Below, in pieces: positions 11,219 through 52,073 of a stretch of DNA of 64,000 bases. Every line of letters starts with the position of its first letter. Within the stretch, counting starts at the first letter, position 1. Both the position numbers and the translations under genes were made by a program. The DNA comes from Fervidobacterium pennivorans. GTDB lineage: Bacteria > Thermotogota > Thermotogae > Thermotogales > Fervidobacteriaceae. The notes beneath the pieces are model-generated. The model did no database searches, had not been told where the DNA came from, and saw only the letters and a list, made by a program, of their open reading frames with translations. The stretch covers positions 1,696,001 through 1,760,000 of the forward strand of contig NZ_CP011393.1 in assembly GCF_001644665.1 (NCBI RefSeq), written 5' to 3'.

Positions 11219-11242
11219 AAACTTTCAAAGGGAGTGATAAAT

Positions 11243-11992: not shown

Positions 11993-12019
11993 TACATTCA
12001 GTTTGTTTTTGTAATAAAC

Positions 12020-13078
12020 GATAGTGTTAACTTGTAGTGATGAAAGAGTGTAATTGTGAAAGAATGCGATTGATATTGCCATTGTGCGTTTTCCAAAGAT
12101 TCTTCACTACACAAAATCCTTGAATATATTTCGCTAAGTTCTTCGTATTCTTCAGCCCTCGCTTGAGTCGGAAAAAGTCTTTCAACAATGAAAACTTAGA
12201 TTCACATTGATTGTTTTTACCGAGCGGTACCACTACGTGATTGATATTTCTGAACAACAGCTTTACTGCACTTTCATATGCACCAAGTCCATCAGTAATA
12301 AGTTCAATGTTTTTAGGTTTTGAATTACCAAAGAACTTCTCGAGCAATACTTTGACTTGTCCCATATCACGATACTTTGAGACATGCCAACAAAGAATTA
12401 AGTTAGTTTCGTGATCAACTAATAGCCAAACATAGTACTTTTGTTCTTTGAACACAAGAACAGTTTCATCAGCATGAACTGAGAAAACATTTTCGATGGT
12501 AAATGTTGGAAAAAGTACAGAGAATAAAGTACACAATTTAATAACCCATTTGTATATGGTGACATGAGATACTTTGATATTAAGAGAATGAGCAAGAGAG
12601 CGATAAGACATATTGTGTTTCATATACAAAACGAAAGCTTTTAAGATGAAGTAGATAGGAAAACGGAAATATTTAAATTTCTCAGGAATAAGGGTGACTG
12701 GTTCGGGGAGGTTAAAAGGTACTCTATCTTTGGTACGACAAGTTCTACAACGGAAGACGACGAAAGAGCGACGGACTTTGTAAATTTCCATAGATTTACC
12801 ACAAGAAGGGCATTTGGGATAAGGGAAAGAGAAGTTTTTGCGTTTGTGAGAATGGGAGAGTTTGAAAGAATGATGGCAGAGTTTGCAAAGGAATTGTTGG
12901 TTACCGTATTTGTCATGACCGTTTTTGTATAAGCTGGTGGAACCGCATTTTGGACAAGAGAGCGTTGAGTTGTTCATATCGGGATACCTCCTTTGTCGAG
13001 AGTTGGTTGGGGGGTGTCCCCTCTTTATAAGGATAATGCGGTTTTTGGAAAGTTTCAATACTTTTAGTTAACATTATC
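12020..13078 (-). mobile_element. IS6-like insertion sequence with terminal inverted repeats
   Basis: A roughly 1.06 kb element holds one transposase gene on the - strand. The left end (12020-12041) and the reverse complement of the right end (13057-13078) match at 16 of 22 positions, both containing GAT-A-x-TGTTAACT. The flanking 8 bases (TAATAAAC on the left, AATACTGC on the right) do not match, so no clean target duplication is visible. The element lies between deoC and the DRTGG gene. The family is inferred from the transposase. Confidence 0.75.
12027..12977 (-). CDS. zinc-ribbon DDE transposase, IS6/IS240-like
   Basis: The 316-residue transposase has two N-terminal zinc-ribbon-like parts (CPKCGSTSLYKNG ... 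CKLC, then CPSCGKSME ... CRTC). A helix-turn-helix region follows (YRSLAHSLNIKVSHVTIYKWV), and then the DDE core: first Asp in SVHADETVLVF, second Asp in LITDGLGAYES, and the Glu in NNQCESKFSLLKDF. This spacing resembles IS6/IS26-type enzymes. The start at 12977 is chosen because AAAGGAGGT lies just upstream. The frame runs 27 codons further, but those are untypical. The gene appears intact. Confidence 0.85.
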   Translation of the reverse strand: MNNSTLSCPKCGSTSLYKNGHDKYGNQQFLCKLCHHSFKLSHSHKRKNFSFPYPKCPSCGKSMEIYKVRRSFVVFRCRTCRTKDRVPFNLPEPVTLIPEKFKYFRFPIYFILKAFVLYMKHNMSYRSLAHSLNIKVSHVTIYKWVIKLCTLFSVLFPTFTIENVFSVHADETVLVFKEQKYYVWLLVDHETNLILCWHVSKYRDMGQVKVLLEKFFGNSKPKNIELITDGLGAYESAVKLLFRNINHVVVPLGKNNQCESKFSLLKDFFRLKRGLKNTKNLAKYIQGFCVVKNLWKTHNGNINRILSQLHSFITTS

Positions 13079-13102
13079 AATACTGCAAGGGGAGGGGCTT
13101 TT

Positions 13103-13432
13103 GTGAAAATTTCTGAAATAGCAAAAAACATAGGTTTGAAAGAGGTTGTGTTCTGCAACGATTACGAAATCGAACATTGTTATGTTGGTGATTTATTAAG
13201 TGTTGTTATGCGTTCCGCTCAGCAAAATAGCATTTGGCTTACTGTCCAAAGTCACGTCAATATAATTGCAGTTGCTGCATTAACAGGAATAAGGGCTATT
13301 GTGCTGTGTGAAGGACTTGATTATCCGCAAGATACTATCGAAAAAGCAAAAGAGGAAGGTATAAACCTGTACATCTCTCCAGAGAGTTCTTATTACGTCG
13401 CCGGTAAGATCTACGAATTAGGAATTCGTTGA
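13103..13432 (+). CDS. DRTGG-domain protein
   Basis: The 109-residue single-domain protein resembles the DRTGG domain found between CBS and other regulatory domains and near HPr-kinase-like proteins. Conserved features are VGDLLSVVMRSAQQNSIWLTVQSHVNIIAVAALTG and a C-terminal YISPESSYYVAGKIYEL. It starts at GTG after GGGGAGGGG. It heads a short operon with a PHP phosphoesterase and a stand-alone HATPase. In other anaerobes such trios sit near [FeFe]-hydrogenase genes, but no hydrogenase is visible here. Its ligand and role are unknown. Confidence 0.78.
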   Translation: MKISEIAKNIGLKEVVFCNDYEIEHCYVGDLLSVVMRSAQQNSIWLTVQSHVNIIAVAALTGIRAIVLCEGLDYPQDTIEKAKEEGINLYISPESSYYVAGKIYELGIR

Positions 13433-13468
13433 TTTCAGCTTTTTTTGATTATAAGTAGTTGATGATAC

Positions 13469-14161
13469 ATGTACAGAGCAGATCTTCACGTTCATTCTTG
13501 TTTGTCTCCTTGTGCAGAACTTACGATGGTGCCTTCAGTGGTCTGCAAGTCAGAAGTAGAAATTCTATCTATCACTGACCATAACTCCGCACGTAACGTT
13601 GCGGCATTTGTTTCTTTATGTAGTAACAAAATTATCGTTCCTGGCATTGAAATTCATTCACAAGAAGACGTTCACATACTTGGTTACTTCGCAGATATTG
13701 AAGATGCGTTAGCTGTTTCAGAAACTGTCGAACAAATGTTGCCAAAGTTCGAATATGACCCAGAAAAATATGGTTACGAACTAGTTTTGAATGAGCAGGA
13801 AGAATTTATAGAATCCCTGGATTATTACCTTGGTTTTCCTGTAAATATGACCATCGAAGACATTTTGGAGTTGATTAAGAAGTACAATGGTCTTCCAGTC
13901 TTTGCACACGTTGATAGAAGATTTGGTGTCATCCAGCAACTTGGAATGGTGCCACACAATGTCAAACACGTTGAGGTAAAGAAAAAAGAACTTGCATTTG
14001 AATTACGAAGCAAAGGATTCATAGTCTTAACTTCATCAGATGCGCATACACCTGACGAAGTAGGCTCAAGGAAAATATATTTCGAAGAACAACCAAAAAG
14101 TGCGGCGGATGTAATAAAACTAATTCAAGAAGGGAGGTTTAAAACAATTTGGGACTTATAA
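13469..14161 (+). CDS. PHP-domain metal-dependent phosphoesterase
   Basis: The 230-residue PHP protein shows its metal-binding sets in order: DLHVHSCLSPCAE (HxH) at residues 5-17, DHNSARN near 38, EIHSQEDVHILGYF, FAHVDRR and a final SSDAHTPDEVG. These residues hold two or three divalent metals that hydrolyse phosphoesters. The substrate is unknown, although some PHP proteins act on nucleotides or histidinol phosphate. It lies between the DRTGG and HATPase genes and overlaps the latter by 13 bases, so the three probably act together. Confidence 0.87.
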   Translation: MYRADLHVHSCLSPCAELTMVPSVVCKSEVEILSITDHNSARNVAAFVSLCSNKIIVPGIEIHSQEDVHILGYFADIEDALAVSETVEQMLPKFEYDPEKYGYELVLNEQEEFIESLDYYLGFPVNMTIEDILELIKKYNGLPVFAHVDRRFGVIQQLGMVPHNVKHVEVKKKELAFELRSKGFIVLTSSDAHTPDEVGSRKIYFEEQPKSAADVIKLIQEGRFKTIWDL

Positions 14162-14688
14162 CCCTATCAGACCATGTACATGATATAGCGGAAAATTCAA
14201 TAAATGCGAAAGCAAAGAATGTGAAACTGGTGATTGAAGAAACAGATGATACCTTTTATTTTTCGGTAGAAGATGATGCAGGTGGGATTAGACCGGATAT
14301 CCTTGAGAAAATTTTTGATCCATTTGTAACAACAAGAAAAAAAGAGATTAGAAGGGTAGGACTTGGACTTCCTTTCTTAAAACAGTCTGCCGAAGCAACT
14401 GGTGGGTATGTAAAGGTAAATTCAGAATATGGCAAGGGTACAAAAACAGAAGCTTTGTTTTATAAATCCCACATTGATTGCCAACCAGTCGGAAACCTTG
14501 TCGATACATTTCTTGTCCTTCTGCTGAATCAAAATATAAATTGGTTTATCAAACGGTGTTATAATGATAATTGCTACGAAATTTCTTCCGAAACGATCCG
14601 AGAATACCTAGGAGTTTTAGACACGCCAGAGAAAATAAAAACATTATCAGAACTGCTTGAAGAGCTTGAAAGTTCAATAAAAAATTAA
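14149..14688 (+). CDS. stand-alone HATPase_c (histidine-kinase-like ATPase) protein
   Basis: The 179-residue protein has a GHKL ATPase domain: the N box as HDIAENSINAKAKNV, the G1 box as DDAGGI, the F-box-like FDPFVTTRK and the G2 box as GLGLPFL. There is no DHp dimerisation/phospho-acceptor domain and no sensor domain, so it is not a full histidine kinase. It may phosphorylate a partner or act as an anti-sigma-like protein. About 60 residues after the ATPase domain are unassigned. It starts at TTG after AAGGGAGG, inside the end of the PHP gene. Confidence 0.83.
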   Translation: MGLITLSDHVHDIAENSINAKAKNVKLVIEETDDTFYFSVEDDAGGIRPDILEKIFDPFVTTRKKEIRRVGLGLPFLKQSAEATGGYVKVNSEYGKGTKTEALFYKSHIDCQPVGNLVDTFLVLLLNQNINWFIKRCYNDNCYEISSETIREYLGVLDTPEKIKTLSELLEELESSIKN

Positions 14689-14717
14689 TAAGAAATTACA
14701 CAAAGGGAGGAAAAAAG

Positions 14718-16928
14718 ATGAGAAAAACATCCGTTTTACCTATCTTAACGGCACTTTTTGTTTTCATCAGTTCAATTTTGTTCGGTTTTGTGTTGAGAGA
14801 TGTACAGTTCGAAGGATTAAAGACTATTAGCAAAAACGAGTTAGTTTCTGTTTACGGTGCTTACATAGGTAAGGATGTGAACATGTACGCAATAGAAGAT
14901 ATAATCTCTCAGCTTGAGGAATTTGGATATTTCAAAGACATTCAATATGTTCTGGAAGACGTTCCAGGAAAGGAAAATGAAAAAGTCTTGGTCATAAAAG
15001 TTGTAGAGAACGAACCTGTTTCACAAGTTTCCTTAGAAATCGCTGGTCCCGGGCTTATAGCTAAGGAAACATTGCAAAGCTCGATAACTTTACAGGAAGG
15101 TAAGGCTTTCAGTTTTGTGAAGTTCTGGGAAAGTATAAGCAACATTGCAAAAATCTACTCTGATAACGGGTACATCGCTGCCACACCAAAATCTCAGGAT
15201 AAAACCTTTGCTTTTGTTTACATCTCGGGTCGCGTAGATGGTAACTCTGTTCTGTTCAAGGTAACCGAATATGTGCTTTACGACTTAGAATTCGAGGTTT
15301 TAAGCGACGACGAGCAATTTAAAGTAGAATTCAAAAACATCGAAAAAGAGTTGAGCTTACCTAAGTATAAAGACTACGAATCAAAAAATCCGCTTCTGAA
15401 AATCTTTGACAGTCCAAAGAATTACGTTCCCAATTTACAGAAGTTGCAGGAGTTCTTCCAAAGTATTTCTAGGTATGTGTACTTTAAGATAGTTGACATA
15501 TCTACTTCGGAGGTAGATTTGAACATTCCAGCGAAAAAACTTGTTGTTACCGTAACTGATAACACAGTTGTATCACAACCGGTCCATCTGAAAGGTATAA
15601 AAACAAAAGGCAACACAATTTTTTCAGAAAAAGAGCTCGTTGGTGAAACGAAAGAGGGCACTTATACAAACTTCGACATCCTAAAAGCTGTACAAAACAC
15701 AAAAAACAAATACGACAAAGCTGGTTATTACATTAATCTAAACTTGGAAATTGGTAGCGATGGATATCTATACATAATCGTGAGTGAAACCAAAATCAGA
15801 AATGTTAAAATAACTGGTAACGAACGAACGAAAACTTATGTGTTCGATGATTTAATAGCTGTCAAACCTGGCGATTATCTAAACCGTAACCAGTTACAAG
15901 TCACGTATATTGAACTTAAAAAGAGTAACTTCTTCAAGGATGTGAATTTAAACTTTGAACCAGTGGATAAAGACAGCGTTGACATTGTTGTAAACGTCTT
16001 GGAAAAAGACAAGAAATTTGACTTCCAGGGAGGAATAACATGGGGACCAGTGAAAAATAAACCTTGGTATGAAGGTTTTGCAGGTATAATATCGCTATCT
16101 TCTACAAATCCATTCGGTTACGGCGAGAATTTTTCAGTATCGTTGCAGAAAGCACTTTCTACCACAGATCTATCGCTTAACTTTGGCATAAGAAAACCTT
16201 TTGAAATGCCGTTAAGCATTTCTTCTTCAATCTCATTTAATCAGGAAACACAAGAGGGAACAACAACAACAAAATGGAGTACTTCAGCTGGAATAAGCAC
16301 TCTAAAACTGCCTATCGGCCAATTTTCTTTGACAGCGAATTATTCCGAAACCACGACATCGTCTACAACAACGCTCACAACAAAAACTATGGCTCTCACA
16401 GGAAGCTACGTTTATGAAACTTTAGATAACCTTTACGTTCCGATGAAAGGTTATTCATTCACCCTCAGTGGAACGAAATATTTCCCGCTTTCAGAACAAG
16501 GTTCTGACGCTATAAGTTACTTCGCAGAAGCAACATACCACTTACCATTATCCGAAACTGTTTCGTTAGCAAGCCGTATTTATAATGCCCAGGTCATCCA
16601 AACATCGGGAGCTCCTGTTAACTTCAGTCTTGCTGGTCCATATCAAGTGAGAGGTGTAAAGAGCGAAGAAAAGGGAACTGTACTTGTTTTAAACAACAAC
16701 GAAATCAGATTTAAAGAACCGGAGCAAATATTCTATTTCTCTATATTCTACGACCTTGGATTCATAGGTCAATCTTACACATTCGACAACCTTATATCTT
16801 CAGCAGGTATAGAACTGGGCTTAGTGTTACCTATGTTCGGCTTGGTACGTTTTGGCACAGGTTTGCAGATTCTACCGGCGTTTTCTCCAAACTTCAACAC
16901 GTATTTCATTCTTGGTCAGACATTCTAA
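14718..16928 (+). CDS. bamA: BamA/Omp85 outer membrane protein assembly factor
   Basis: The protein has 736 residues. An N-terminal signal peptide spans about 1-24. POTRA-like repeats follow, starting at VLRDVQFEGLKTISKNEL and recurring at HLKGIKTKGNTIFSEKEL and IRNVKITGNERTKTYVFDD. The last ~300 residues form a beta barrel. The conserved loop-6 motif appears as YQVRGVKSEE, and the chain ends in Phe (ILGQTF), as expected for outer-membrane barrels. It would insert proteins into the outer envelope (toga). The region between the first two POTRAs (about residues 100-290) is hard to assign. The start follows AAAGGGAGG. Confidence 0.9.
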   Translation: MRKTSVLPILTALFVFISSILFGFVLRDVQFEGLKTISKNELVSVYGAYIGKDVNMYAIEDIISQLEEFGYFKDIQYVLEDVPGKENEKVLVIKVVENEPVSQVSLEIAGPGLIAKETLQSSITLQEGKAFSFVKFWESISNIAKIYSDNGYIAATPKSQDKTFAFVYISGRVDGNSVLFKVTEYVLYDLEFEVLSDDEQFKVEFKNIEKELSLPKYKDYESKNPLLKIFDSPKNYVPNLQKLQEFFQSISRYVYFKIVDISTSEVDLNIPAKKLVVTVTDNTVVSQPVHLKGIKTKGNTIFSEKELVGETKEGTYTNFDILKAVQNTKNKYDKAGYYINLNLEIGSDGYLYIIVSETKIRNVKITGNERTKTYVFDDLIAVKPGDYLNRNQLQVTYIELKKSNFFKDVNLNFEPVDKDSVDIVVNVLEKDKKFDFQGGITWGPVKNKPWYEGFAGIISLSSTNPFGYGENFSVSLQKALSTTDLSLNFGIRKPFEMPLSISSSISFNQETQEGTTTTKWSTSAGISTLKLPIGQFSLTANYSETTTSSTTTLTTKTMALTGSYVYETLDNLYVPMKGYSFTLSGTKYFPLSEQGSDAISYFAEATYHLPLSETVSLASRIYNAQVIQTSGAPVNFSLAGPYQVRGVKSEEKGTVLVLNNNEIRFKEPEQIFYFSIFYDLGFIGQSYTFDNLISSAGIELGLVLPMFGLVRFGTGLQILPAFSPNFNTYFILGQTF

Positions 16929-23779: not shown

Positions 23780-25077
23780 CACTTGAATATGATGTTACCG
23801 TGTTTGGTGCAGGCCTCGCAGGTGTAAGTGCAGCAGTAACGGCTCAGCGACTTGGGAAAAAGGTAATCTTAATCGAACAAAGCTCAGTCGTTGGTGGCAA
23901 TGCAACTGCAGGACTTGTTAATCCATTCATGAGGTTCTGGCTTGATAACCAGTTGCTGTGTGGAGATTTCTTCGAAGAGTTAATTACAGATCTAAGAAAA
24001 CGAGATGGAATAATCGAAAATTGTTTTGACTCTGAGGTACTGCGATTAGTATTGATGGAAAAACTGCAAAGTGTGGATATCCTTTTCAGAGCGATACCTA
24101 TATCGGTAAGAGACAGCAAGGATGAAAAGTCCGGACTAAAAAGAATTGAAAAAGTTGTGGTTAAAACAGCGTTAGGAAACGAGTATGAAATTCATTCTAA
24201 GCTTTTTGTTGATGCGACAGGTGATGGTAGTTTTTCTTACCTTGCAGGCTGTTCATACGATTCTGGAGATGAGACAACACATGAAAACCAAGGGACAACT
24301 CTCATGTTCACATTAGCGAACGTAGACTTTGAGAAAGTACGTGAATATGTGAGAAGAGAGCCCGAAAACTTTTTCAAATGGGTTTCACCAAACTCGAAAG
24401 TTTTGTCCGTAGGAGGATACTTTAAGGAGGTGAGAAAAGCAAAGGAAGATGGACTCAACTATCCGGTTGACTATTTCTTCTTCAACCAACTACCTGGAAC
24501 TGGTAGAGTAACAGTTAACACGACTCACGTATGGGTCAAAACAACTGATGATTTTGAAATCTCGAAAGCACTAAAGGATCTTCACAAACAGGTTGAAACA
24601 GTGTACACATTTGCAAAAAGATATGTGCCCGGATTTGAAAACTGTTACGTTGAAAAGATAGCCACTTATCTTGGCGTCAGGGAGAGTCGCCGTATTCGGG
24701 GTTTATATACCTTCTCCGAAGACGATGTTATTAGAAAAAGCAGATTTGAGGATGGGGTTGTTAAAGCTGTTTATGGCATCGATGTTCACAAAAAGATTCA
24801 AACCAGCAACTCAAAAAACACCTCTGAAGTTCCCAGATACGAAGACTATTACGAGATACCATTAAGATCACTGATTTCCAAAGATTTCGTGAACCTGGGT
24901 ATAGTTGGTCGAAATTTCTCGGGAACATTTTTAGGTCAATCCGCAGCTCGAATAATGGCAACATGCACGGACATGGGTGAAGCAATCGGACGTGCGGCTG
25001 GTATGGTAAATACTAGTTTTCATGAAATTGTAAGGTCAAGAATGCTAGACAATGAAAAAGGGAGGGGTTCGGAATGA
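23776..25077 (+). CDS. FAD-dependent oxidoreductase (FAD_oxidored family)
   Basis: The 433-residue flavoprotein has a Rossmann dinucleotide motif (VFGAGLAGVSAAVTAQ, residues 8-23), the GGNATAGLVNP segment that follows it in this family, and a second FAD contact in FVDATGDGSFSYLAG. The C-terminal part has NLGIVGRNFSGTFLGQSAARIMATC. Proteins of this family sit in many sugar operons, but their substrates are mostly unknown. Its 4-base overlaps with nanE and with the binding-protein gene tie it to the amino-sugar operon. Oxidation of a sugar or glycan product is a guess. Confidence 0.85.
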   Translation: MTLEYDVTVFGAGLAGVSAAVTAQRLGKKVILIEQSSVVGGNATAGLVNPFMRFWLDNQLLCGDFFEELITDLRKRDGIIENCFDSEVLRLVLMEKLQSVDILFRAIPISVRDSKDEKSGLKRIEKVVVKTALGNEYEIHSKLFVDATGDGSFSYLAGCSYDSGDETTHENQGTTLMFTLANVDFEKVREYVRREPENFFKWVSPNSKVLSVGGYFKEVRKAKEDGLNYPVDYFFFNQLPGTGRVTVNTTHVWVKTTDDFEISKALKDLHKQVETVYTFAKRYVPGFENCYVEKIATYLGVRESRRIRGLYTFSEDDVIRKSRFEDGVVKAVYGIDVHKKIQTSNSKNTSEVPRYEDYYEIPLRSLISKDFVNLGIVGRNFSGTFLGQSAARIMATCTDMGEAIGRAAGMVNTSFHEIVRSRMLDNEKGRGSE

Positions 25078-26321
25078 AAAAGGTATTTTTGGTGCTGTTG
25101 GTTCTTATCGCTGCAATTGGTTTTGCTAAAACTATCACGTTGGAATTCTGGACACTTTCTTTAAGTCCAACGTTTGACGAATACTTAAAAGCGATGATTG
25201 CTGATTTTGAAAAAAACAATCCTGGTATTAAAATCAATTGGCTTGATATACCTTATGCTTCAGCAGTTCAAAAGTTAACAGCGGCTATTGCGGCTGGGCA
25301 AGGTCCTGATGTTGTGAACTTGAACACAACTTGGGCTGTTGACTTTGCAATTCAAGGTGCAATATTGCCCATAGATAATTTAATTCCTCCAGTCACCATT
25401 AAACAATACTGGGAAAAGCTTTGGAACGCAACAGTAGTAAATGGTAAAGCTTATGCGTTTCCGTGGTATGCATCCATCCCGATATTAATGTACAATAAAG
25501 ACTTGTTCAAAAAGGCAGGGCTCGATCCAAATAAACCTCCAAAGACTTGGGATGAAGTTTTGGAGTATTCGAGAATTATAAGGGCTAAATTGGATATATA
25601 CGGTTTCGAGCCAAATATAATCGCTATTGATGAACTTCTCTTGGAAGGTGTTCCTATAGTAACACCAGACGGCAAAAAGGCAGCTTTCAACACCCCAGAA
25701 GCGGTTGCCCGACTGGAATGGTTCCAAAAAGCATACAGAGAGAATTTGATGCCAAGGTCGCTTGGCGGTTATGGTGAAGGTAGAGAGTTCTATCAGCAAG
25801 GTAAGATAGTTATGTATCCAGCAGGGTTGACAATGCTAAAACACATAGAAGTTAATAGTCCGAATATATTCAAGGTTACGGATGTGGCACCACACCCCGT
25901 TGGAAAAGCTGGGATAATAAAGGTCTCATTGATGAACCTTGTGATTCCCGTTACTTGCAAATATCCAAAGGAAGCGGCAAAATTTGCTGCTCATGTAACT
26001 TCACCGAAATGGCAGATAGAGTTTAGTAAGTATGCTACAGTATCACCTTCAACCGTGCAAGGCTTGGAAACAAGTGAATATTTCAGACAAAGAGTTAAAG
26101 CAGGCGACCTTAACGCTAAAGCTATGTACATGGCAAGTCTTTCCATGAAAAATGCAGTAGATCTTAATGCTCCAAGTGTTATAGGTGTTCCAGCTAGTAA
26201 ACTCCCAGATGTCAGAAAGGTTCTTCAGGACTATTGGATGAAGGCAATTAAAGGCGAACTTACAGCAAAAGAAGCGCTGAGCTTGGCCGAAAAAGAAGTC
26301 AATGCAATATTAGCAAAATAA
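25074..26321 (+). CDS. MalE-type ABC sugar-binding protein
   Basis: The protein is 415 residues with a signal peptide (about 1-19, ending IGFAK). The mature part begins TITLEFWTLSLSPTFDEYLK, typical of extracellular solute-binding family 1, and continues with AAIAAGQGPDVVNLNTTW. It would bind a sugar outside the inner membrane and deliver it to the two permeases downstream. No ATPase gene follows, so a shared MsmX/UgpC-type ATPase elsewhere is needed. A strong hairpin separates it from the permease genes. Confidence 0.92.
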   Translation: MKKVFLVLLVLIAAIGFAKTITLEFWTLSLSPTFDEYLKAMIADFEKNNPGIKINWLDIPYASAVQKLTAAIAAGQGPDVVNLNTTWAVDFAIQGAILPIDNLIPPVTIKQYWEKLWNATVVNGKAYAFPWYASIPILMYNKDLFKKAGLDPNKPPKTWDEVLEYSRIIRAKLDIYGFEPNIIAIDELLLEGVPIVTPDGKKAAFNTPEAVARLEWFQKAYRENLMPRSLGGYGEGREFYQQGKIVMYPAGLTMLKHIEVNSPNIFKVTDVAPHPVGKAGIIKVSLMNLVIPVTCKYPKEAAKFAAHVTSPKWQIEFSKYATVSPSTVQGLETSEYFRQRVKAGDLNAKAMYMASLSMKNAVDLNAPSVIGVPASKLPDVRKVLQDYWMKAIKGELTAKEALSLAEKEVNAILAK

Positions 26322-26341
26322 ACGCAATCTCATGGCAATTT

Positions 26342-26365
26342 AGTGTGGGGGGTGCCCCCCACATT
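26342..26365 (+). promoter_or_regulatory. strong hairpin between binding-protein and permease genes
   Basis: A 9-bp inverted repeat (TGTGGGGGG / CCCCCCACA) has a 2-base centre and lies just after the binding-protein stop. It lacks a good T-run, so it looks like an RNase barrier or partial attenuator rather than a full terminator. It could give more binding protein than permease. Confidence 0.65.
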
Positions 26366-26391
26366 TGCTAAGTTTATGTGGGGTGATAAAT

Positions 26392-27258
26392 TTGCGAGCA
26401 AGGAAGAGACAAACGATTATAATTGCTGTACTTTTTCTCTTCGTGCCTTTGACTCTTTTGTGTATATTTACCTATTATCCAATAATAAGAGGAATAATAC
26501 TATCTTTTAGCGACTATAATATGTTTACTAAGAAGACAACCTGGGTAGGTTTGAGAAACTATAAAGAAATATTTCAAAACAAATACTTTTACGAAGCACT
26601 TCGAAATATCTTTAAATACCTGATCGTGGTTCCTCTTATACAGTTTACCGCAATACTTACAGCTGTACTTGTAAATCAAGACATTCCTGGAATCAAATTC
26701 TTTCGAACTCTTTTCTATGTTCCGGTGATAACTGGGTCAGTTATTGTTAGTATGACTTGGCGCTGGATCTACAACGTTGATGGCTTATTAAACAGTTTTC
26801 TGCTGTCCACAGGTGTAATAAAAGAACCAATTATGTGGTTAACTGACGAACGGTTCGCACTCTATAGTGTTATGTTTGTAACGTTTTGGAGGGGTATTGG
26901 TTACTACATGGTCATTTACCTCGCAGGTCTTCAAAATATACCAAGTGAGCTGTACGAAGCAGCAAGAATAGACGGAGCAAATGCTAGGCAGATTCTAGCA
27001 AGAATCACATTACCGCTTCTCAGACCTACCATGTTGTTCTGCTTCACGATTTCCAGCTTGGCTGCTCTTAAGGTATTTGAAGAAGTGTTCCTAATGACTC
27101 AAGGTGGTTCCGGAACAACAACGATGATGTATTTGATTTACGATTACGCTTTTGTCAGATTTAAATTTGGACTTTCGACCGCAACCTCCGTGGTTTTCGC
27201 AGGTATTCTAATAGTATTCACAGCTATCAATTTCAAATTCTTTGGACCAAAGAGGTGA
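26392..27258 (+). CDS. ABC sugar permease, MalF type
   Basis: The 288-residue inner-membrane protein has six expected helices. The cytoplasmic EAA loop that docks the ATPase is present as ELYEAARIDGANARQILARITLP. The start is taken at TTG 26392, giving MRARKRQTIIIAVLF after GTGGGGTGAT. A TTG nine codons upstream lacks a ribosome site. It forms the membrane pore with the next gene product. Confidence 0.92.
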   Translation: MRARKRQTIIIAVLFLFVPLTLLCIFTYYPIIRGIILSFSDYNMFTKKTTWVGLRNYKEIFQNKYFYEALRNIFKYLIVVPLIQFTAILTAVLVNQDIPGIKFFRTLFYVPVITGSVIVSMTWRWIYNVDGLLNSFLLSTGVIKEPIMWLTDERFALYSVMFVTFWRGIGYYMVIYLAGLQNIPSELYEAARIDGANARQILARITLPLLRPTMLFCFTISSLAALKVFEEVFLMTQGGSGTTTMMYLIYDYAFVRFKFGLSTATSVVFAGILIVFTAINFKFFGPKR

Positions 27259-27265
27259 TATAACC

Positions 27266-28093
27266 ATGACAATGAAAAAAATAATTAGAGTAATTCTTAG
27301 TTATATCATTCTGATAGCTTTAGGTATATTTTTCACCTTCCCATTCATTTGGGTACTATCAACGTCATTTAAAGGTCCAGGTGAGAATCTGTTTACTTGG
27401 CCGCCAAAATTTATACCGCAAAATCCAACGTTAGAAAACTACGTAACCGTATTTCGGAAAGTTCCGATGATAAGATACTTTCTGAATACGATAATCATAA
27501 CCTCCTTGGGTGTGATTTTTCAAGTCATTTTAGCAGCACTCGCTGCTTATCCCCTAGCACGACTTGAGTGGAAGGGGAAAGACCTTGTCTTTAAGTTCAT
27601 CCTTCTTCCCCTTTTAATACCTATGGAAGGCGCTCTAATCGTTAACTTTATTACTATATTGAAAATGGGGTTGTATGACAGGTACTTGGCCGTTGTTCTT
27701 CCAAGTGCTGTATCAATTTTTGGTATATTTCTAATGCGACAACATTATCTGTCAGTACCAGCAGAACTTGAGGATGCTGCAAGAATTGATGGGTGTAATG
27801 AATTCCAAGTCTTTTGGAAGATAACATTTCCATTAGTTAGACCAGCAACTGCTGCCCTTGCAATATTTGCTTTCACTGCATATTGGAACTCCCTGCTCTG
27901 GCCACTCATCGTTCTCAGAACACCTACGAAGTATCCTATCCAAGTAGGATTGTCTCAGCTGAGTAGTACGTTCGAACCCAACTTCAGAACTGCATCAGCT
28001 GCGATGGTCATTGCAATGATACCTATTTTAACATTCTTCTACCTTACTCAGAGATACTTCATAGAAGGTTACAAGGGCGCAATAATTGAGTAA
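27266..28093 (+). CDS. ABC sugar permease, MalG type
   Basis: The 275-residue partner permease has the EAA loop as ELEDAARIDGCNEFQVFWKITFP and a typical periplasmic start, FTFPFIWVLSTSFKGPGEN. The ATG at 27266 follows GAGGTGAT at 27252-27259. It is co-transcribed with the MalF-type gene. The sugar carried is unknown; the neighbours point to amino-sugar or mannose-containing oligosaccharides. Confidence 0.92.
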   Translation: MTMKKIIRVILSYIILIALGIFFTFPFIWVLSTSFKGPGENLFTWPPKFIPQNPTLENYVTVFRKVPMIRYFLNTIIITSLGVIFQVILAALAAYPLARLEWKGKDLVFKFILLPLLIPMEGALIVNFITILKMGLYDRYLAVVLPSAVSIFGIFLMRQHYLSVPAELEDAARIDGCNEFQVFWKITFPLVRPATAALAIFAFTAYWNSLLWPLIVLRTPTKYPIQVGLSQLSSTFEPNFRTASAAMVIAMIPILTFFYLTQRYFIEGYKGAIIE

Positions 28094-28134
28094 TAAAACA
28101 CCTAACTCAGTTAAGGTAGGGGGAGTGAACAGGT

Positions 28135-31038
28135 ATGAAGTGGGCTTATAAGGTATTTGTATACTTGTTGCTTTGGTTAATTCCCGGGATAATTTTAGCT
28201 ATTCCTTCTATCGGGATCCTCTACTCACCAACAACAGAAAGTTATTACACCAAACCTACTTACGACAATATAATCCGTGGAGTGCTTAGTGTATTAGACT
28301 ACGGTAAGCTCGAATACGAGGTCATCAATACAAGCAAAGTTACAAGTATACCAGATAACATAAAGGTCCTTATAGACCCTTCAAATGGTGCCATTTCAGA
28401 TAGCGAAATTAACCTTGTCGAATCTTACCTTATGAAAGGCGGAAAACTCATAGCCTGTTACGAAAGCGGTCTCAAAGATGCGCAGGCTAAAAACAGGAGT
28501 AACTTCGCATACTCAAAATTCTTAGGTGTTAAGTTCGTTTCTTGGGATAGCGGAAAGTACTTCGTCATGAAGCCTACGCAAACAGGGGTCTCTGTTTTTA
28601 AAACGGACAAGAATATACCTTTGTCGAGAGGCTTCACTTTTGTCATAGATCTGACACAAAATGCAACACCTCTGGCTATTTGGTATACAAAAGATGGAAA
28701 GATTTCAAACGAAAAGTATCCGGCTGCTGCGGTTCTTTCACCTTTTGGTGTTTATTTTGGCGAGAACATATTCCTTCAAACCTCGACCAACGATGAACTT
28801 AAATCTTTGGTACTCAATACCATCGGTTACTTACTTGAAGAACCTATATCAAACGTTAATCCTGTGTTTTATCTTAAAGCCTCATTGGACGAAAAAATTG
28901 CGACATTTGAAACCAGGCTATTGGAAAGTAGAAAAAAGATTCCAAAAACGCAACTATACAAGATGCAGGAAATGCTTTGGGAGATAAAAGATGCATCAAA
29001 AAAAGCATCTGATTTATCAGAGTTGAAAAAGCTCCAAAAGATGGTCGATTTGCTTGAGATACAACTCTTACCACAGTACAATGTCCAGTTAAGAGGTATC
29101 TGGTTTGATAGTTACGCAATCAGAGATTGTGAAACACCGGAAAAGTTGCGCAAACAGATTCGAGAACTCCACGAGCTTGGATTCAACGCTATCTTTCCTG
29201 AAGTTATCTACAAAGGAATGACAATTTCTCCGAAGATTTCCAGATTTCCTCAAGACCCAGCTTTTCAGGACTAGAAAGAAGACCCATTGCAGGTTATAGT
29301 TGACGAAGCCAAGAAACTAGGGATGGAGGTTCATGCGTGGTGTTGGATCTACGCTGTTGCGTCCGGAGGTATCAAAACTCCGTTCATGGATGCTCATCCA
29401 GAGTGGATTGAGAAGGACAAATATGGTAGTATCTTTTCAAAAAACAACACCGCATGGTTATCGCATGCAAATCCAGAAGTAAGAGACTACCTTATTAACA
29501 CTTTGCTGGAAGTGATACAAAAATACGACGTAGACGGTATAAATCTGGATTACATACGGTACGATGGTGATGAATTTGGATACGACGAATTCGCTGTGAA
29601 AAGGTTTAAAGAAGAGACAGGAATAGATCCATTTACCATTGAGAAGTACAGTAAAGAAAGCGTTATATGGCAAATGTGGCGTGAGGAGAACGTAAATACA
29701 TTTGTGAGAGAATTCTACAGTAAAGCTAAGAAAATTAAAAACAACTTAGTCATCAGTGCGGCAGTATACCCAACACTTAGTGGTGCTCGCATGGAGAAAA
29801 AACAAAACTGGGAATACTGGGTAAAGAGTGGATATTTAGATCTTCTCATCCCAATGGATTACAGAAATTCGGCCGAAGATCTCAAGATACTCTTTGATAT
29901 GCAGTCTGAGTATAAAAAAGATGTTTACCTTTGCCCTGGTTTGCAACTGATATCTTTGGACGAACCTAAGAAAGTCATCGATCAAATCGCCTTAACAAAC
30001 AACTACTTCAAATCCGGATTTGTTCTGTTTTCTGTCTCTCACATAAAGAAATTTTCAAATGACTATGAGTATTTCAGAGTGGTTATGTCAAAGCACGCCG
30101 TAACCCCATTCAAAGGTATAGATGTACTACTTGATTCATTTGCTGATACTTTGATGGATGATATTAGTATATTCACCGAAAACGACTCACTCAAAGAGGA
30201 CATTAATTTCATCTTTTCAGAATTTGAAAAGATCAAGAAAAGCAGTAATTACGCCGACCTGGTCGAAAAAATATCAAATGGCATCTTCACAATATCGGAC
30301 AACGTAAAGGATCCAACTCTGGCTCTAAGCGCTATAGATTCCCTAAGCTGGATGCTCGAAATCACATACCCGGCTGCGAATAAATTAAAGCCAAAAAGTT
30401 CATTCATTCCCCAAAAACCTAAAGAAATGGTAGTAGTGGAAAACATTGTTCCAATACCGAAATTAGAAGTCAAACAAGGTAAAGCAACCCTTAGTAGAAA
30501 TCTCGAAGAGTGGAAAGATGCTGAGACAAGCGGTCAATTCCTTATGTACGATACCGGCCAGAGAGCGGATGTATCAAGTTATGCTAAGATCATGTACGAT
30601 GATGAAAACCTGTACGTGCTTTTTGTTTGTAAAGAACCTGATTTTAGCTCAGTTAAAGTTGTTTCTGGTCCACGCGACACCCGCACTTACTTGGGGGATT
30701 CTGTAGAAGTGTTCATTCTCAAGGACGAAAGAACTAATTCCTACTACCACTTTGTCGTTGGTTTCGACGGTACCATCTATGACGAACTGGGATACGATAG
30801 TAAATGGAACGGTGATATTGTGGCAACAACTTGGAGAGAAATTGATGCGTGGTATGTGGAAATAAAAATTAACATGAATTATTTGGGAATTTCTTTGAAA
30901 GATACTTCCGAACTAAAGGCAAACTTCTGCAGAAACCGCTGGAAAGGCAATATTCCCTTTTATTATACTTGGAGTGTTACTTATGGTTCATTCCACACAC
31001 CTGAAAGATTTGGGAAACTTATATTTCAAAGAAAGTAA
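28135..31038 (+). pseudogene. secreted GHL10 glycoside-hydrolase-like protein, broken by an in-frame TAG
   Basis: One reading frame of 968 codons is interrupted only by TAG at 29272-29274 (codon 380). The first half has a signal peptide (about 1-22), a Rossmann-like GATase1-type region, a helical linker and the start of a TIM barrel (RGIWFDSYAIRD, LGFNAIFPEV). The second half continues in the same frame with DEAKKLGMEVHAWCW, VDGINLDYIRYDGDEFG and a C-terminal CBM9-like beta domain. Homologues have DPL just after the break point, and it is found here too. A TGG-to-TAG change is the simplest cause. It may be a recent null allele, a sequencing error or readthrough. Each half alone would lack part of the barrel. 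Confidence 0.8.
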
Positions 31039-31069
31039 TGACTCCAAAATCTTTACTTAATAACTTTAG

Positions 31070-31148
31070 AAAGGAGGTGTTCGGTACACGTCCCAGTTTG
31101 TAAAACTTAAAACATAGACTAACGTGGGGGCCGTGTACTGCTCTATAA
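31070..31148 (+). promoter_or_regulatory. Shine-Dalgarno displaced by a hairpin before the DUF4127 gene
   Basis: A near-perfect ribosome site, AAAGGAGGTG (31070-31079), lies 70 bases before the DUF4127 ATG, and no start codon follows it at normal distance. A 9-bp stem, CGGTACACG (31082-31090) with CGTGTACTG (31132-31140), has one G-U pair and an inner CCCA/TGGG extension. It fills the gap. Folding leaves 10 unpaired bases between ribosome site and ATG, as in the hairpin-assisted starts known from phage T4 gene 38. Confidence 0.6.
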
Positions 31149-32651
31149 ATGAGAGTATTATTTCTTCCACTAGATGAAAGATTTTGCACTAAAGACTACT
31201 TCATTCACCTTTGCTCGTCTGTTGGTATAGATGTAATTTTTCCCGAGCATTTTGGGTTAAAAAAAACACCGGCAGACGTTGAATATTTAGCTAACTGGTT
31301 GGTACAAAACTCTCTTGGTTGCGATTTTGCAGTGCTATCTTTGGATATGCTCTTGCATGGCGGACTGGTCCCATCGAGGTTGGATTATACCCAAGAAGAG
31401 ACATTAATTAAACGCTTGAATGTTCTGTCACTTGTGAAAAAACAAAACAGCAATCTAAAAATATACGCAACGAAGACTGTTACAAGAATACCTACGTACA
31501 ACTCTATGGAAGAAGAACCAGACTACTGGGTTTACTTTGGTAAAGCTCTATATGAGTATTCCACAAGCCTTGCCAGTGGGCATAATATTAAAGAGCACAA
31601 TATTCCTCAGTGGATAATTCAGGACTTTTTGTGGAGACGAAGGAGGAACTTACAGACCACCAAGGAAGCTATCAACCTTGTGAAAGCAGGTGTTATAGAC
31701 TTCTTAAGCATAATGCTTGATGACAACTCCGAAGGTAGTCTTGTCTACAAAGAAGCGTGTGAACTCGAACAGCTGGTTGCACAATTGGGCTTAAACGAGA
31801 AGGTACAAATAAGAAACGGTGCAGACGAAGCTTCGTTAAGTCTAATTTCAAAATGTCTCTGCGATCATTTCCGCCTTCAGCCAAGGTTTAAAGTCATCTA
31901 TCGAAAGCCAGAACATGCTTATCTTGTGCCCCCGTATCATAGCGATGAACTGGACACGTCTACCAAAAGCCACATTTTAGGAGCTGGTGGACATCCTGTC
32001 GACTTAGAATCTGAGTTTGATATTTTGCTTTACGTGAACAATTTTGAACCAGACGAACCAAAAGAAGCACCTTTTCAGAATAAATCGATTCAGAATTTAA
32101 AACGCACTGAACACGCTGAATTAATAGAATGGATCGACCTTGCTTACGAACAAAACAAGATAATAGCAATTGCAGATGTAAGATACGCGAATGGTTCGGA
32201 TAATTCTTTAGTTGAAAGGATATTGGAAAAACCAATAAATTGGGAACTTACAACTTACTACGGCTGGAACACAGCAGGTAACACGCTTGGCTCAACGTGT
32301 GCACATTCAGTATTGTTGTATCTCAGCAAAAAGGGTTTACTTCAAATAGACAGAGAGAAACTGGAGAAATATCAGTCAATACTTCTATTAGAACACTGGG
32401 GCTACCAAGCTAATGTCCGAAAGATGCTCTATGAGGAGCTCAGAAGACGTAACCAAGATATAAATTCATGTCTTTCAATGATTAAAGATGAAGAATGGGC
32501 TAAGAGGTTCGTCGAGAAAAATCTCGAAGTGTACATGGACAGAATAAACCAATCTTTAAAAAAGAACTGGAAATACTCAGTCTTTTTCCCATGGCACCGT
32601 CCTTTTGAAATAGGCATAGTGCTTATCGATACTAAGCAGGTGGTTGGTTAG
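31149..32651 (+). CDS. DUF4127 family protein
   Basis: The 500-residue cytoplasmic protein has the family opening MRVLFLPLDERFCTKDY and motifs LSLDMLLHGGLVPSR, IYATKTVTRIPTYNS, LDDNSEGS, RNGADEASLSL, YGWNTAGNTLGST and the late HRPFEIGIVL-like end. The function of this family is not known, although it is repeatedly placed in sugar-catabolic operons. The many conserved Asp, His and Asn residues suggest an enzyme. It lies between the GHL10 gene and the sugar kinase. Its own ATG has no close ribosome site. Confidence 0.85.
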   Translation: MRVLFLPLDERFCTKDYFIHLCSSVGIDVIFPEHFGLKKTPADVEYLANWLVQNSLGCDFAVLSLDMLLHGGLVPSRLDYTQEETLIKRLNVLSLVKKQNSNLKIYATKTVTRIPTYNSMEEEPDYWVYFGKALYEYSTSLASGHNIKEHNIPQWIIQDFLWRRRRNLQTTKEAINLVKAGVIDFLSIMLDDNSEGSLVYKEACELEQLVAQLGLNEKVQIRNGADEASLSLISKCLCDHFRLQPRFKVIYRKPEHAYLVPPYHSDELDTSTKSHILGAGGHPVDLESEFDILLYVNNFEPDEPKEAPFQNKSIQNLKRTEHAELIEWIDLAYEQNKIIAIADVRYANGSDNSLVERILEKPINWELTTYYGWNTAGNTLGSTCAHSVLLYLSKKGLLQIDREKLEKYQSILLLEHWGYQANVRKMLYEELRRRNQDINSCLSMIKDEEWAKRFVEKNLEVYMDRINQSLKKNWKYSVFFPWHRPFEIGIVLIDTKQVVG

Positions 32652-32679
32652 ATGTTGACAAGGAAGGGGACATTAGTAA

Positions 32680-33576
32680 ATGGAAAAGAAAATCATTGCA
32701 GTTGATATTGGTGGAACTACCGTTAAAGGCGCAGTATTTTCCAAAAATAAAATACAAAAAAAGGTTGTTAAGAACACATCTAGGGTAGATCCGCTAAACA
32801 CGACAATAAAGATCATTGAACAGTTAATGGAAAATGACAAAGAAATATCAGCCATCGGTATTGCAACAGCAGGAAGAGTTAACTCATTAACGGGAGAAAT
32901 CTTATATGCTACACCCAACTTGAAGAACTGGGCAGGTAGAAACATAAAAAAAGAGCTGGAAACTCTCTTTGGCATCCCGACATATGTTATAAACGATGCC
33001 AAAGCAGCTACATTAGCTGAAGCTTACACTCGTAAAGTGCACTCACTTGTCTTTTTAACCATAGGAACGGGATTAGGCGGGGGGGTCTTTATTGATGGTA
33101 AATTGGTAAATGGAACTTTGTGGGAAGCTGGGGAAATTGGGCATACCATACTTTATCCAAATGGTCGAAAATGTAACTGTGGCAAGAGAGGTTGCGCAGA
33201 GCAGTACATATCTATGAAAGTTCTCCACAGGTACGCAAAAATCCCCTTAGCTGAAAGGAATCAGTTGCTTGCCGGTTTCATAAACAACGAAGAAAAAGTG
33301 TTAGCTGCAGTTGAAAAATTGTGCGGTAACCTGGCGATGTTGATTGATAAAATATTTCTCATCATAGACCCAGAAATTGTAGTCGTTGGCGGAGGATTTT
33401 CAGAGCTTGGAGAAATGGCCTTGCATATACTTAGGAACAAGCTGATAGAGTATTCGTCTAAATCTCTTTATCATCCAACTCAGGTCGAACTCAGCATCTT
33501 TCAAAACGACGCTGGGCTTATTGGTGCTTCTCTTTTCGCTGCAACGCAGTATGAGGAGGTAGTATATCATGGTTGA
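32680..33576 (+). CDS. ROK-family sugar kinase, probable N-acetylmannosamine or hexosamine kinase
   Basis: The 298-residue ROK kinase has the phosphate loop DIGGTTVKG at the N-terminus, GTGLGGGVFIDG for ATP binding, the sugar-contact EAGEIGHTIL and the structural zinc motif CNCGKRGCAEQY. In an operon headed by nanE, the simplest role is phosphorylating ManNAc to ManNAc-6-P. Glucose or GlcNAc cannot be excluded from sequence. Its end overlaps the RpiR gene by 8 bases. Confidence 0.88.
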   Translation: MEKKIIAVDIGGTTVKGAVFSKNKIQKKVVKNTSRVDPLNTTIKIIEQLMENDKEISAIGIATAGRVNSLTGEILYATPNLKNWAGRNIKKELETLFGIPTYVINDAKAATLAEAYTRKVHSLVFLTIGTGLGGGVFIDGKLVNGTLWEAGEIGHTILYPNGRKCNCGKRGCAEQYISMKVLHRYAKIPLAERNQLLAGFINNEEKVLAAVEKLCGNLAMLIDKIFLIIDPEIVVVGGGFSELGEMALHILRNKLIEYSSKSLYHPTQVELSIFQNDAGLIGASLFAATQYEEVVYHG

Positions 33577-34405
33577 AGATATCTTGACGCGTTTAAGTTA
33601 CCAACCCGGTGCTCTGACTAAAAAGGAAAAAATAATAGCACAGTACGTCATAGAGAACGGTGAAGAGGTTGTGCATATGAGCATCACAGAACTTTCTGAT
33701 TTATTGAACGTTGGTGAAGGCACTATCGTTAGATTTTGTCAAAAACTCGGTTTTGAAGGATTTCATTCTTTCAAAATATTTCTTGCAAAAAGTTTACCAA
33801 ATAACAAAAACGAGGCAGAATCCTTTTCTTCTGAGGACCTGCTTTTGCAAATAAAAACGAATCACATTAATACTATTGTACAAACGTACGAATTACTCAG
33901 TTCGTCCAAGGAAGTCCTAAGCAAGTGTGCCGAAATAATTTCGCAATGCAAAAAGCTTTACACAGTAGGTGTTGGTGCATCTGGAGCAACAGCATTGGAT
34001 GCATACTACAAATTTATGAGAATAGGTATTGATACGTTCTTTTCCCAAGACACCCACTTAGTAGCTATGGCACTTGCCACCTCCACTTCGAATGATGTCC
34101 TTCTTGCCTTTTCTCAAAGCGGGTCAACATCTGTGATCGTAGATCTGGCGAAAATGGCAAAGGACAATAATACAAAAATTGTTGCCGTAACGGGACATAA
34201 GAGATCTCCTCTTGCAGAAGTCGCTGATTATGTTTTACTTACGCCTATTCGCGAAGCACCATTTGAAAGCGGTGCGATAAGATCGAAAATTTCTCAGCTA
34301 CATGTCTTAGAAGCTCTATTTGAAATGACTAAGCGGAATATAAAAGAAAGGGCAAACCACTATATACAACAAACTGCTCGCGCTGTTGAAAGGTGGATTT
34401 ACTAG
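33569..34405 (+). CDS. RpiR/MurR-family transcriptional regulator with SIS domain
   Basis: The 278-residue regulator has an N-terminal HTH_6 domain (about 1-77, with SITELSDLLNVGEGTIVRFCQKLGFEGFHSFK) and a C-terminal SIS domain (about 108-245, with GVGASGATALDAYYKFMRIG and AFSQSGSTSVIVDLAK). SIS domains of this family bind phosphosugars, so ManNAc-6-P or GlcNAc-6-P is a likely effector. It is the last gene of the nanE operon and probably binds the palindrome at 23008-23024. Confidence 0.9.
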   Translation: MVEDILTRLSYQPGALTKKEKIIAQYVIENGEEVVHMSITELSDLLNVGEGTIVRFCQKLGFEGFHSFKIFLAKSLPNNKNEAESFSSEDLLLQIKTNHINTIVQTYELLSSSKEVLSKCAEIISQCKKLYTVGVGASGATALDAYYKFMRIGIDTFFSQDTHLVAMALATSTSNDVLLAFSQSGSTSVIVDLAKMAKDNNTKIVAVTGHKRSPLAEVADYVLLTPIREAPFESGAIRSKISQLHVLEALFEMTKRNIKERANHYIQQTARAVERWIY

Positions 34406-49585: not shown

Positions 49586-50563
49586 ATGGAGAACCTGGTT
49601 AGCTTTATCGTACGAAGGATATTGATAATGATACCAATGATGGTTATAGTGTCGATAATATGTTTCACGATCACCGAGCTCCAACCTGGAGATTTCCTTT
49701 CACAGTATCTCGATAACCCAAGAATTTCACCTGAACAGATCGAAGCTTTAAAGCGTGAACTCGGGCTTGATAAACCAGCGTATTACAGGTACTTTTTGTG
49801 GGTCAGGAACATCGTTACAAAGCTCGATTTTGGTTATAGTTTTTCCTATCAGCGACCTGTCTTTGAGTTAATTTGGGAGAGAATGGGTTGGACTGTAGGA
49901 ATATCGCTAATGACCATTCTTCTTCAATGGCTTATCGCTATACCCCTTGGTATCTTTTCAGCATTTCGTCCTTACAGCTTCTGGGATTACACATTCGCTG
50001 TCATAGCCTTCATAGGTATATCAATACCGGAATTCTTTTTAGCCTTGATTTTGATGTACTTCGCTTTAAATGCAGGATATACGTACATAGGGGGCCTATT
50101 TTCTCCTGAATTTATCGGAGCACCCTGGTCGCTTGCCAAATTTATAGACTTGTTAAAGCATCTTTGGATACCGCTGATAGTGATAGGTGTGAGTGGTGTA
50201 GGTGGGTTATACCGCATCATGAGAGCGAACTTGCTGGACACCATCGGTTCACCTTTCATAACAGCACTAAGGGCAAGAGGTTTGGACGAAGCTGTGATAA
50301 AAAGACACGCAGTTAAGAACGCACTTAATCCATTGGTAAGTATTGCGGGTATGGAGCTGCCAAATGTTTTTAGTGGCACTATCATAGCCTCAATCGTCTT
50401 AAACCTTCCAACAATAGGTCCATTTTTTTACAACGCGCTTTTGAATCACGACCAATACTTGGTTATGTCGTTTCTGATGTTTATAGCGTTCATAACACAG
50501 ATAGGCAATTTGTTGGCTGATATAGCTTTGGCGCTCCTGGATCCAAGAATAAGGATAGCGTAA
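49586..50563 (+). CDS. oligopeptide-type ABC permease, OppB/DppB family, second set
   Basis: The 325-residue permease has an N-terminal helix (VRRILIMIPMMVIVSIICF), a central pore domain and the EAA loop LRARGLDEAVIKRHAVKNALNP. It ends ALLDPRIRIA, as usual for DppB. The ATG at 49586 is chosen after GGGGGGAAC; the longer frame from 49535 runs through the hairpin. Its normal partner gene lies beyond an IS110 insertion. Confidence 0.92.
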   Translation: MENLVSFIVRRILIMIPMMVIVSIICFTITELQPGDFLSQYLDNPRISPEQIEALKRELGLDKPAYYRYFLWVRNIVTKLDFGYSFSYQRPVFELIWERMGWTVGISLMTILLQWLIAIPLGIFSAFRPYSFWDYTFAVIAFIGISIPEFFLALILMYFALNAGYTYIGGLFSPEFIGAPWSLAKFIDLLKHLWIPLIVIGVSGVGGLYRIMRANLLDTIGSPFITALRARGLDEAVIKRHAVKNALNPLVSIAGMELPNVFSGTIIASIVLNLPTIGPFFYNALLNHDQYLVMSFLMFIAFITQIGNLLADIALALLDPRIRIA

Positions 50564-50686
50564 GATTTCCGGTAATAAGTCAAGAGGAGAAAAAATAGAA
50601 AAATAAAAAACCTAGTCAACACTTTGACTTTCAATAACTTAATATTTCACTTTCATTCTTCACATACTTGATTTCGTTCTTTTTAC

Positions 50687-51835
50687 CTATTTCATCGGTA
50701 CATACGGTACGTTGTTCTTTAGTAAATAATACACTAAATTTACTAATTTCCTTGCAGTTAATATTAGCGCTCTCATGTGTTTGTGTGTTGTTGCTTCTGC
50801 GTACTTTTTGCGATAATATTCTTTGTATACAGGATCGTATGTCTTTACTCCGTTCGCTGCCATTACTAGGTATGTTCTTAGATACTTGTTCCCTTTTTTC
50901 GTTAGTTGGTTGTTTTCTGATTTGTAATTTCCACTTTGATTGATTGTCCATACAAGCCCTGCGTATGATGCTAACGCTGAGGCTTTTTCGAAACGATTGA
51001 TGTCTCCTATTTCGGCTATAATTCCAGCTGCAGTTATTTCTCCTATCCCTTTGACTGTTGTTAGTGTGTTCGAAATTACTTTAAGTAATTTACTTATTTC
51101 TTTCTTTACTAGTTCGATTTGTTTTTCATAGTGCTGTATCAAATCGATAGTGGAAACAATAGATATTCTCAGAGTGTTTGAAGGATTAACAGACAACCTC
51201 AAGGCATCTTTAGCAAGAGTTTGGAGTTTTTCTGCTAAGACTTGTGAAGAGACATTGTGTCTGGAAATTTTCGCAATATATTCAAATAACTCTTCAATTG
51301 GCATGTTTGCGATTTCTTCGATTGTATAATCTTTAAGCAGGCATTCGAAAGTCTTATTTAGTTTAAAGTCAAGTTTAGGGAAATAAAGAGAAACATACGA
51401 ATAGAGCCTAAGTTTCAATCGAGCGATATCTTCGTTGAACTTTAAATAAAGTCTGGTGAGATTACGAAGCTCAGAGATGATATATGAGTTATTGACAAAA
51501 GGGACTAAAGACTCAGGAAATTTAGAAGCGATAGAGAAAATAAGTTCAGCATCGATTTTGTCAGTTTTAGGACGATTGAGAATTTTGCGATAGAGCTTAA
51601 TGTTATCAGTTTTAACCCAAAAGACAGGTACGTTGTTTTGAAAGAAGAAGTTAGCGACATTAAAAGAAAAAACACCAGTTGATTCAAGGACAAGAGAAAA
51701 ATCGGAAGAAGAAGCAAAAGCTTTGTTAAAAAGTTCAACAATACCTTGAGGAGAGTTCTCAACAGTCCCACTACCGATGAAATCAGAAAAGAAAGAAAGA
51801 TAGTTCTTTGAGACATCAATAGCTAAAATAGCCAA
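50687..51835 (-). CDS. IS110-family DEDD transposase/recombinase
   Basis: The 382-residue enzyme has an N-terminal RuvC-like DEDD domain (AILAIDVSK at the start, ESTGVFSFNVANFF, then NRPKTDKIDAELI). The C-terminal transposase_20 domain has TTVKGIGEITAAGIIAEIGD, SALASYAGLVWTINQSG and LTKKGNKYLRTYLVMAA with the conserved Ser region. Enzymes of this family recombine DNA guided by an element-encoded bridge RNA. The TTG at 51835 follows GGAGGTGATTCC; the upstream GTG lies within that ribosome site. The gene is intact. Confidence 0.93.
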   Translation of the reverse strand: MAILAIDVSKNYLSFFSDFIGSGTVENSPQGIVELFNKAFASSSDFSLVLESTGVFSFNVANFFFQNNVPVFWVKTDNIKLYRKILNRPKTDKIDAELIFSIASKFPESLVPFVNNSYIISELRNLTRLYLKFNEDIARLKLRLYSYVSLYFPKLDFKLNKTFECLLKDYTIEEIANMPIEELFEYIAKISRHNVSSQVLAEKLQTLAKDALRLSVNPSNTLRISIVSTIDLIQHYEKQIELVKKEISKLLKVISNTLTTVKGIGEITAAGIIAEIGDINRFEKASALASYAGLVWTINQSGNYKSENNQLTKKGNKYLRTYLVMAANGVKTYDPVYKEYYRKKYAEATTHKHMRALILTARKLVNLVYYLLKNNVPYVPMK

Positions 51836-51854
51836 AGGAATCACCTCCGGATTG

Positions 51855-51929
51855 AGTACAGCCTTACAACCTCGCGGTACATAAGAAAACGAGGCAAAAC
51901 ATTTTCCGGCAAGTAAAAAGCTGTACTCT
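51855..51929 (-). ncRNA. candidate IS110 bridge RNA (structured leader)
   Basis: Just upstream of the transposase, GAGTACAGC and GCTGTACTC form a perfect 9-bp stem (51855-51863 with 51921-51929). It encloses another perfect stem, CCTCG/CGAGG (51871-51875 with 51891-51895), and unpaired loops. The position, between the left end and the recombinase gene, is that of the bridge RNA of the IS110/IS621 group. The RNA's true ends, and its target- and donor-binding loops, are not determined. Confidence 0.5.
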
Positions 51930-52073
51930 AGTTAGGCAATCTTATTTAAGAGAACAAAGTCTCAAGGAGGGGCAACCTGAAACTATTTTACCAGAGGTGT
52001 TAAAAAATATGCATTCAATTTTCAAAGACCAATTTTAATTTTTACCGAACTTATTATACGAGGGGTGGAAGTA

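Follow-up and report, generated by a model that had tools for sequence, protein, structure and literature searches.

A candidate hairpin-split ribosome binding site in the leader of a DUF4127 gene of Fervidobacterium pennivorans

Bacteriophage T4 provides the best-described cases in which an RNA hairpin bridges a Shine-Dalgarno (SD) sequence and a distant initiation codon. The hairpin of T4 gene 38 shortens the SD-AUG distance from 22 to 5 nt (PMC3014915), and that of T4 gene 25 shortens it from 27 to 11 nt (Nivinskas 1999, Malys and Nivinskas 2009, reviewed in PMC3014915). For both genes, destabilizing mutations were found experimentally to reduce initiation (PMC3014915). We analyzed a 64,000-nucleotide stretch of the F. 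pennivorans genome (referred to here as the window) containing a DUF4127 gene whose leader, judging from sequence comparison, is probably a split ribosome binding site of the T4 gene 25/38 type. The genome is a single contig of 2,061,852 bases with ~39% G+C. Its host is a member of the Thermotogales and an apparent thermophile, and Thermosipho MAGs belong to the same family.

The DUF4127 gene has a GHL10 glycosidase-like gene upstream and ROK and RpiR-type genes downstream. We conclude that ATG 31149 is the correct start: the Pfam DUF4127 match begins at residue 3 of its product, homologues share this initiation codon and begin MR(V/I)xFLPxDERFC, and the codon directly 5' of the ATG (31149-31151) is an in-frame TAA (31146-31148). 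The features of the leader are collected in Table 1.

Table 1. Positions in the window of the DUF4127 gene and of the elements of its leader
Feature	Position	Strand	Remarks
Distal SD TTAGAAAGGAGGTG (core GGAGG 31073-31077)	31066..31079	+	Complementary over 14 nt to the 3' end of this genome's 16S rRNA; GGAGGTGTT common to congener G004
Outer helix, 5' arm CGGTACACG	31082..31090	+	Partner 31132-31140; compensatory changes relative to G004
Inner helix, 5' arm TCCC	31091..31094	+	Partner 31127-31130; of the four pairs, two are C-G in the window but U-A in G004
Apical part of hairpin	31095..31126	+	Sequence and fold unlike those of the congener
Inner helix, 3' arm GGGG	31127..31130	+	Followed by bulged C 31131
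Outer helix, 3' arm CGTGTACTG	31132..31140	+	Partner 31082-31090
8-nt spacer CTCTATAA	31141..31148	+	Includes in-frame TAA 31146-31148; SD-like sequence absent
DUF4127 gene (PF13552)	31149..32651	+	ATG start, 500 aa; Pfam E 1.5e-132; start kept in relatives

The 16S 3' end of the window genome reads ...GGATCACCTCCTTTCTAA, and the distal SD, which includes AAAGGAGGTG at 31070-31079, surpasses the SD of every other called gene (14 nt; the longest other is 13 nt). A genome search located TTAGAAAGGAGGTG once outside rRNA and elsewhere only in the two 16S genes. Measured linearly, 71 nt separate the end of GGAGG from the ATG in the window and 68 nt in the congener G004; the mode of this distance in the window genome is 7-9 nt. 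The original prediction had described an SD without a start codon and a start codon without an SD, and we confirmed both elements at their places: no start codon with a real frame occurs at usable spacing from the distal SD, and ATG 31149 has no usable SD nearby. The AGGTG present in G004 belongs to the 3' arm of the hairpin and is paired; its end is 14 nt away from the ATG.

Between the SD and the ATG, at 31082-31140, we found the predicted hairpin, composed of a 9-bp outer helix that includes one G-U pair and an inner helix of 4 bp, or of 5 bp with a 2-nt bulge in an alternative register. It is confined to the SD-AUG interval and leaves both the SD and the AUG outside the stem. Folding it out reduces the path from GGAGG to ATG in the window from 71 to 12 nt, so the two elements are brought close as had been proposed, at a spacing slightly above the predicted figure of about 10 bases. 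Considered by itself, the window hairpin is modestly better than chance, which is suggestive only. Dinucleotide shuffling of the interval gave as good an outer helix in 63 of 20,000 trials, chance should supply ~1-3 outer stems of that quality among the 1,209 orphan-SD/start pairs of the genome, and the stability of the whole-leader fold was not unusual (z = -1.63). We accept the window hairpin as real because G004 has a hairpin at the same place.

The DUF4127 gene is present in three of the nine genomes of the genus. One of these, G008, is 99.84% identical to the window over 15 kb and contributes no independent information; the covariation analysis comprises two independent leader sequences, those of the window and G004. 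The proteins of G004 and the window are 78% (GHL10) and 74% (DUF4127) identical vs. a DNA identity of ~91% elsewhere in the two genomes (median of sampled segments), and we therefore conclude that the alleles of this cluster have been separated longer than the typical genes of their hosts. The G004 leader runs from GGGAGGTGTTT through the 5' arm TGTACGCACCTTGC, 27 nt, and the 3' arm GCAAGGTGCGTACA to TTTTGCAA and the ATG, its arms forming a perfect 14-bp stem. None of 20,000 dinucleotide shuffles matched this stem, and 1,000,000 mononucleotide shuffles in the allowed geometry produced no 14-bp and two 13-bp Watson-Crick stems.

The arms of the two alleles were aligned by hand to the structure, with one bulged C of the window omitted. 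Compensatory changes in relatives, which had been suggested as a check on the hairpin, were present: five of the 13 structurally aligned pairs differ on both sides and still pair, one differs on one side, six are unchanged, and one basal pair is broken. Sliding the partner arms abolished pairing in this comparison. The formal column shuffle (20/500) is a weak control, as the alignment has two rows only, and the comparison draws its strength from the G004 stem, which occupies the equivalent position and is significant in its own right. The flanks of the hairpin are kept while the arm sequences are not, with GGAGG 4 or 5 nt from the stem and the stem 8 nt from the ATG in both alleles. When the stem is folded out, the remaining path is 12 nt in the window and 13 nt in G004, in the tail of the genome's spacing distribution.

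We propose that the 30S subunit would be anchored through its 16S tail at the exceptionally strong distal SD (31066-31079) and would accommodate the intervening RNA hairpin, not melt it. The SD-to-AUG path would thereby be cut from 71 to ~12 nt, and AUG 31149 would reach the P site. That ribosomes use the folded path, and that translation drops when the stem is broken, is what we infer from this arrangement. The gene 38 logic invoked in the original prediction is supported by the covariation, the conserved geometry, and the absence of another SD. The likeness to the T4 sites is an anatomical one; every structural trait that can be read from sequence is present except that the remainder, 12-13 nt, is rather long. 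This remainder exceeds the genome mode of 7-9 nt even with the width of the helix not yet counted, and it counts against a split site. The same is true of the SD itself, which is predicted to be partly paired with codons 4-8 when the folds include the coding start.

Codons 4-8 of DUF4127 (TTTCTTCC.., within 31149-31190) can pair with the distal SD in the predicted folds of both alleles, possibly as an alternative conformer. The hairpin as a whole is predicted to be stable at 65-80 C. In ViennaRNA calculations, whose parameters are extrapolations for 1 M salt, the window outer helix was predicted to be closed at 0.98 (70 C) and 0.92 (80 C) in the isolated interval and at 0.92 and 0.83 in a 117-nt mRNA context. 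The stem of G004 is the stronger of the two, its predicted closure at these temperatures being 0.98 and 0.93 in isolation, or 0.96 and 0.91 in context. The suggestion that the bridge is temperature sensitive was not supported, with the outer helix predicted closed at 0.83-0.92 at 80 C, and the bridging hairpin is predicted to be >80% formed up to that temperature. The SD is predicted to become freer with heat in context as the weak codons 4-8 pairing loosens, as almost any weak helix would.

The distal SD could have another use. The hairpin might be a regulatory or RNA-stability structure, bound by a protein or ligand or stabilizing a processed mRNA, with the distal SD acting as a standby or loading site and the ATG initiating independently of an SD on the A/U-rich spacer. 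Both spacers, CTCTATAA and TTTTGCAA, are rich in A/U and contain no SD, and the pairing of the SD with codons 4-8 in both species makes a switch conceivable. However, the hairpin has no Rfam family match, its loop is unconserved, and a structure of this kind does not need what both alleles have, a strong SD 4-5 nt before the stem base and an ATG 8 nt after the stem; we regard this explanation as unlikely. The split site might instead be a controllable bridge, and thus a switch in a sugar-catabolic operon. The conformer with the bridge formed and the SD free would permit initiation, which would be prevented by pairing of the SD with codons 4-8 or by opening of the bridge by a protein or upstream translation. 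We consider such control quite unlikely.

The sugar-catabolic cluster has its own RpiR and ROK genes, and a regulator, for example the RpiR-family protein encoded nearby (33569-34405), could in principle recognize the inverted repeat as its DNA operator, but the arm sequences differ between the alleles with pairing kept, which is unexpected for a protein site. The spacing of the arms differs as well (41 nt between the 9-bp arms vs. 27 nt between the 14-bp arms), and the 121-bp leader has one genomic copy, leaving an operator very unlikely. The distal SD might serve an N-terminally extended DUF4127 or a short leader peptide. In favor of this, the GTG within GGAGGTG of G004 begins a 527-aa open frame that runs on into the gene, and there is a TTG 4 nt downstream of GGAGG. 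In the window, however, the GTG frame ends after 8 codons, an in-frame TAA precedes the ATG, and no start codon has usable spacing; since homologues also begin at the ATG, we find this reading extremely improbable. A chance hairpin in an intergenic leader would agree with the 1-3 equal outer stems expected genome-wide and with the whole-leader z of -1.6, but the homologous 14-bp hairpin of G004 and the paired changes make coincidence hard to credit.

The hairpin is absent from Thermosipho and other Thermotogota, in which the DUF4127 start and the GHL10 stop are no more than a few bases apart and the end of the GHL10 gene provides an ordinary SD, e.g., GGAGAGTGAGGGTATG. In the window, G008, and G004, the SD at the end of GHL10 is gone and a 110-130 nt leader with the putative split site is found instead. 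Since the hairpin-less relatives have a normal SD at the upstream stop, we conclude that the split arrangement replaced an ordinary SD. When 45 genomes of the order were searched with patterns describing this architecture, only the three DUF4127 genes were recovered, and neither a near-complete scan of the window genome nor ~0.8 Mb of G004 contained a second hairpin-split gene. A scan of the genome collection for further alleles gave only relatives without the leader, and viral contigs gave none.

Our first genome scan, by loose MFE, returned 725 hits vs. 680 expected and was uninformative because it counted internal starts downstream of ordinary SDs. In a stricter orphan-SD scan, DUF4127 ranked first among mixed-sequence ATG cases. 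The orphan-SD hits that scored above it were TTG or GTG candidates with low-complexity, homopurine, or homopolymeric stems, and were rejected, as was the one other good-looking case in the part of G004 scanned (241484), where the codon is internal to a gene that has its normal start further upstream. Rfam gave no match at gathering score across the whole window and chance-level matches only at a relaxed threshold. We found no intrinsic terminator in the region, and a promoter search there gave one weak site, no more than chance. An origin of the leader from a repeat or mobile element was rejected, the 121-bp leader being single copy in its own genome.

We also noted several features of the surrounding DNA. 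Window segments 24471-34404 and 57259-61967 adjoin in G004 (1-9945 and 10147-14924 of the compared stretch), where their DNA is 67-74% identical to the window. Together they appear to be an accessory catabolic cluster whose alleles are old; in the window, ~23 kb of other DNA separates them. Within the GHL10 glycosidase-like gene (28135-31038), an in-frame TAG at 29272-29274 replaces the TGG (Trp) of G008 and G004, and the two listed GHL10 ORFs are therefore one broken gene; the TAG is a one-base nonsense change in the window strain or a sequencing error. At 12009-13095 lies a ~1.07 kb repeat, probably an insertion sequence; the parts of G004 examined contain at least 13 copies of it, most of them ~98% identical. 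The ~1.44 kb at 50562-52000 is 100% identical in G006 (two copies) and G004, has many partial copies at the contig ends of G007, and is probably a recent mobile element.

If the split-site reading is correct, cellular ribosomes accommodate hairpins between the SD and the AUG on a bacterial chromosome. The example would stand out because it covaries, because the segment excised is much larger than in T4, because no other SD in its genome is as strong, and because its host is apparently thermophilic. Start-site predictors that use linear SD spacing alone could then misjudge such genes. The natural alleles with swapped base pairs make the stem hypothesis directly testable.

RNA thermometers of the ROSE and fourU types likewise have a structured 5' leader near the SD; unlike them, the main DUF4127 hairpin contains neither the SD nor the AUG and, by prediction, remains folded at growth temperature. 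In E. coli thrS, as proposed here, a hairpin in the binding site stays folded while the ribosome accommodates it (PMC3936740). The thrS hairpin sets apart an upstream single-stranded domain and has been modelled within standby modules upstream of the SD (PMC3936740), whereas that of DUF4127 lies between the SD and the AUG. A hairpin in that position joins the two elements in T4 gene 38 also, but the T4 hairpin is shorter and its final spacing optimal, while DUF4127 is left with 12-13 nt. T4 gene 25 shares with DUF4127 an intercistronic junction, a strong SD too far from the AUG, a path shortened to similar length (11 vs. 12 nt), and occurrence in one clade with absence from more distant relatives. 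It differs in that DUF4127 is a bacterial chromosomal gene of the Thermotogales with a much larger predicted hairpin and a near-perfect 14-nt SD. The DUF4127 leader is a real, conserved, single-gene feature, and the mechanism it resembles has its best-documented examples in phage T4.
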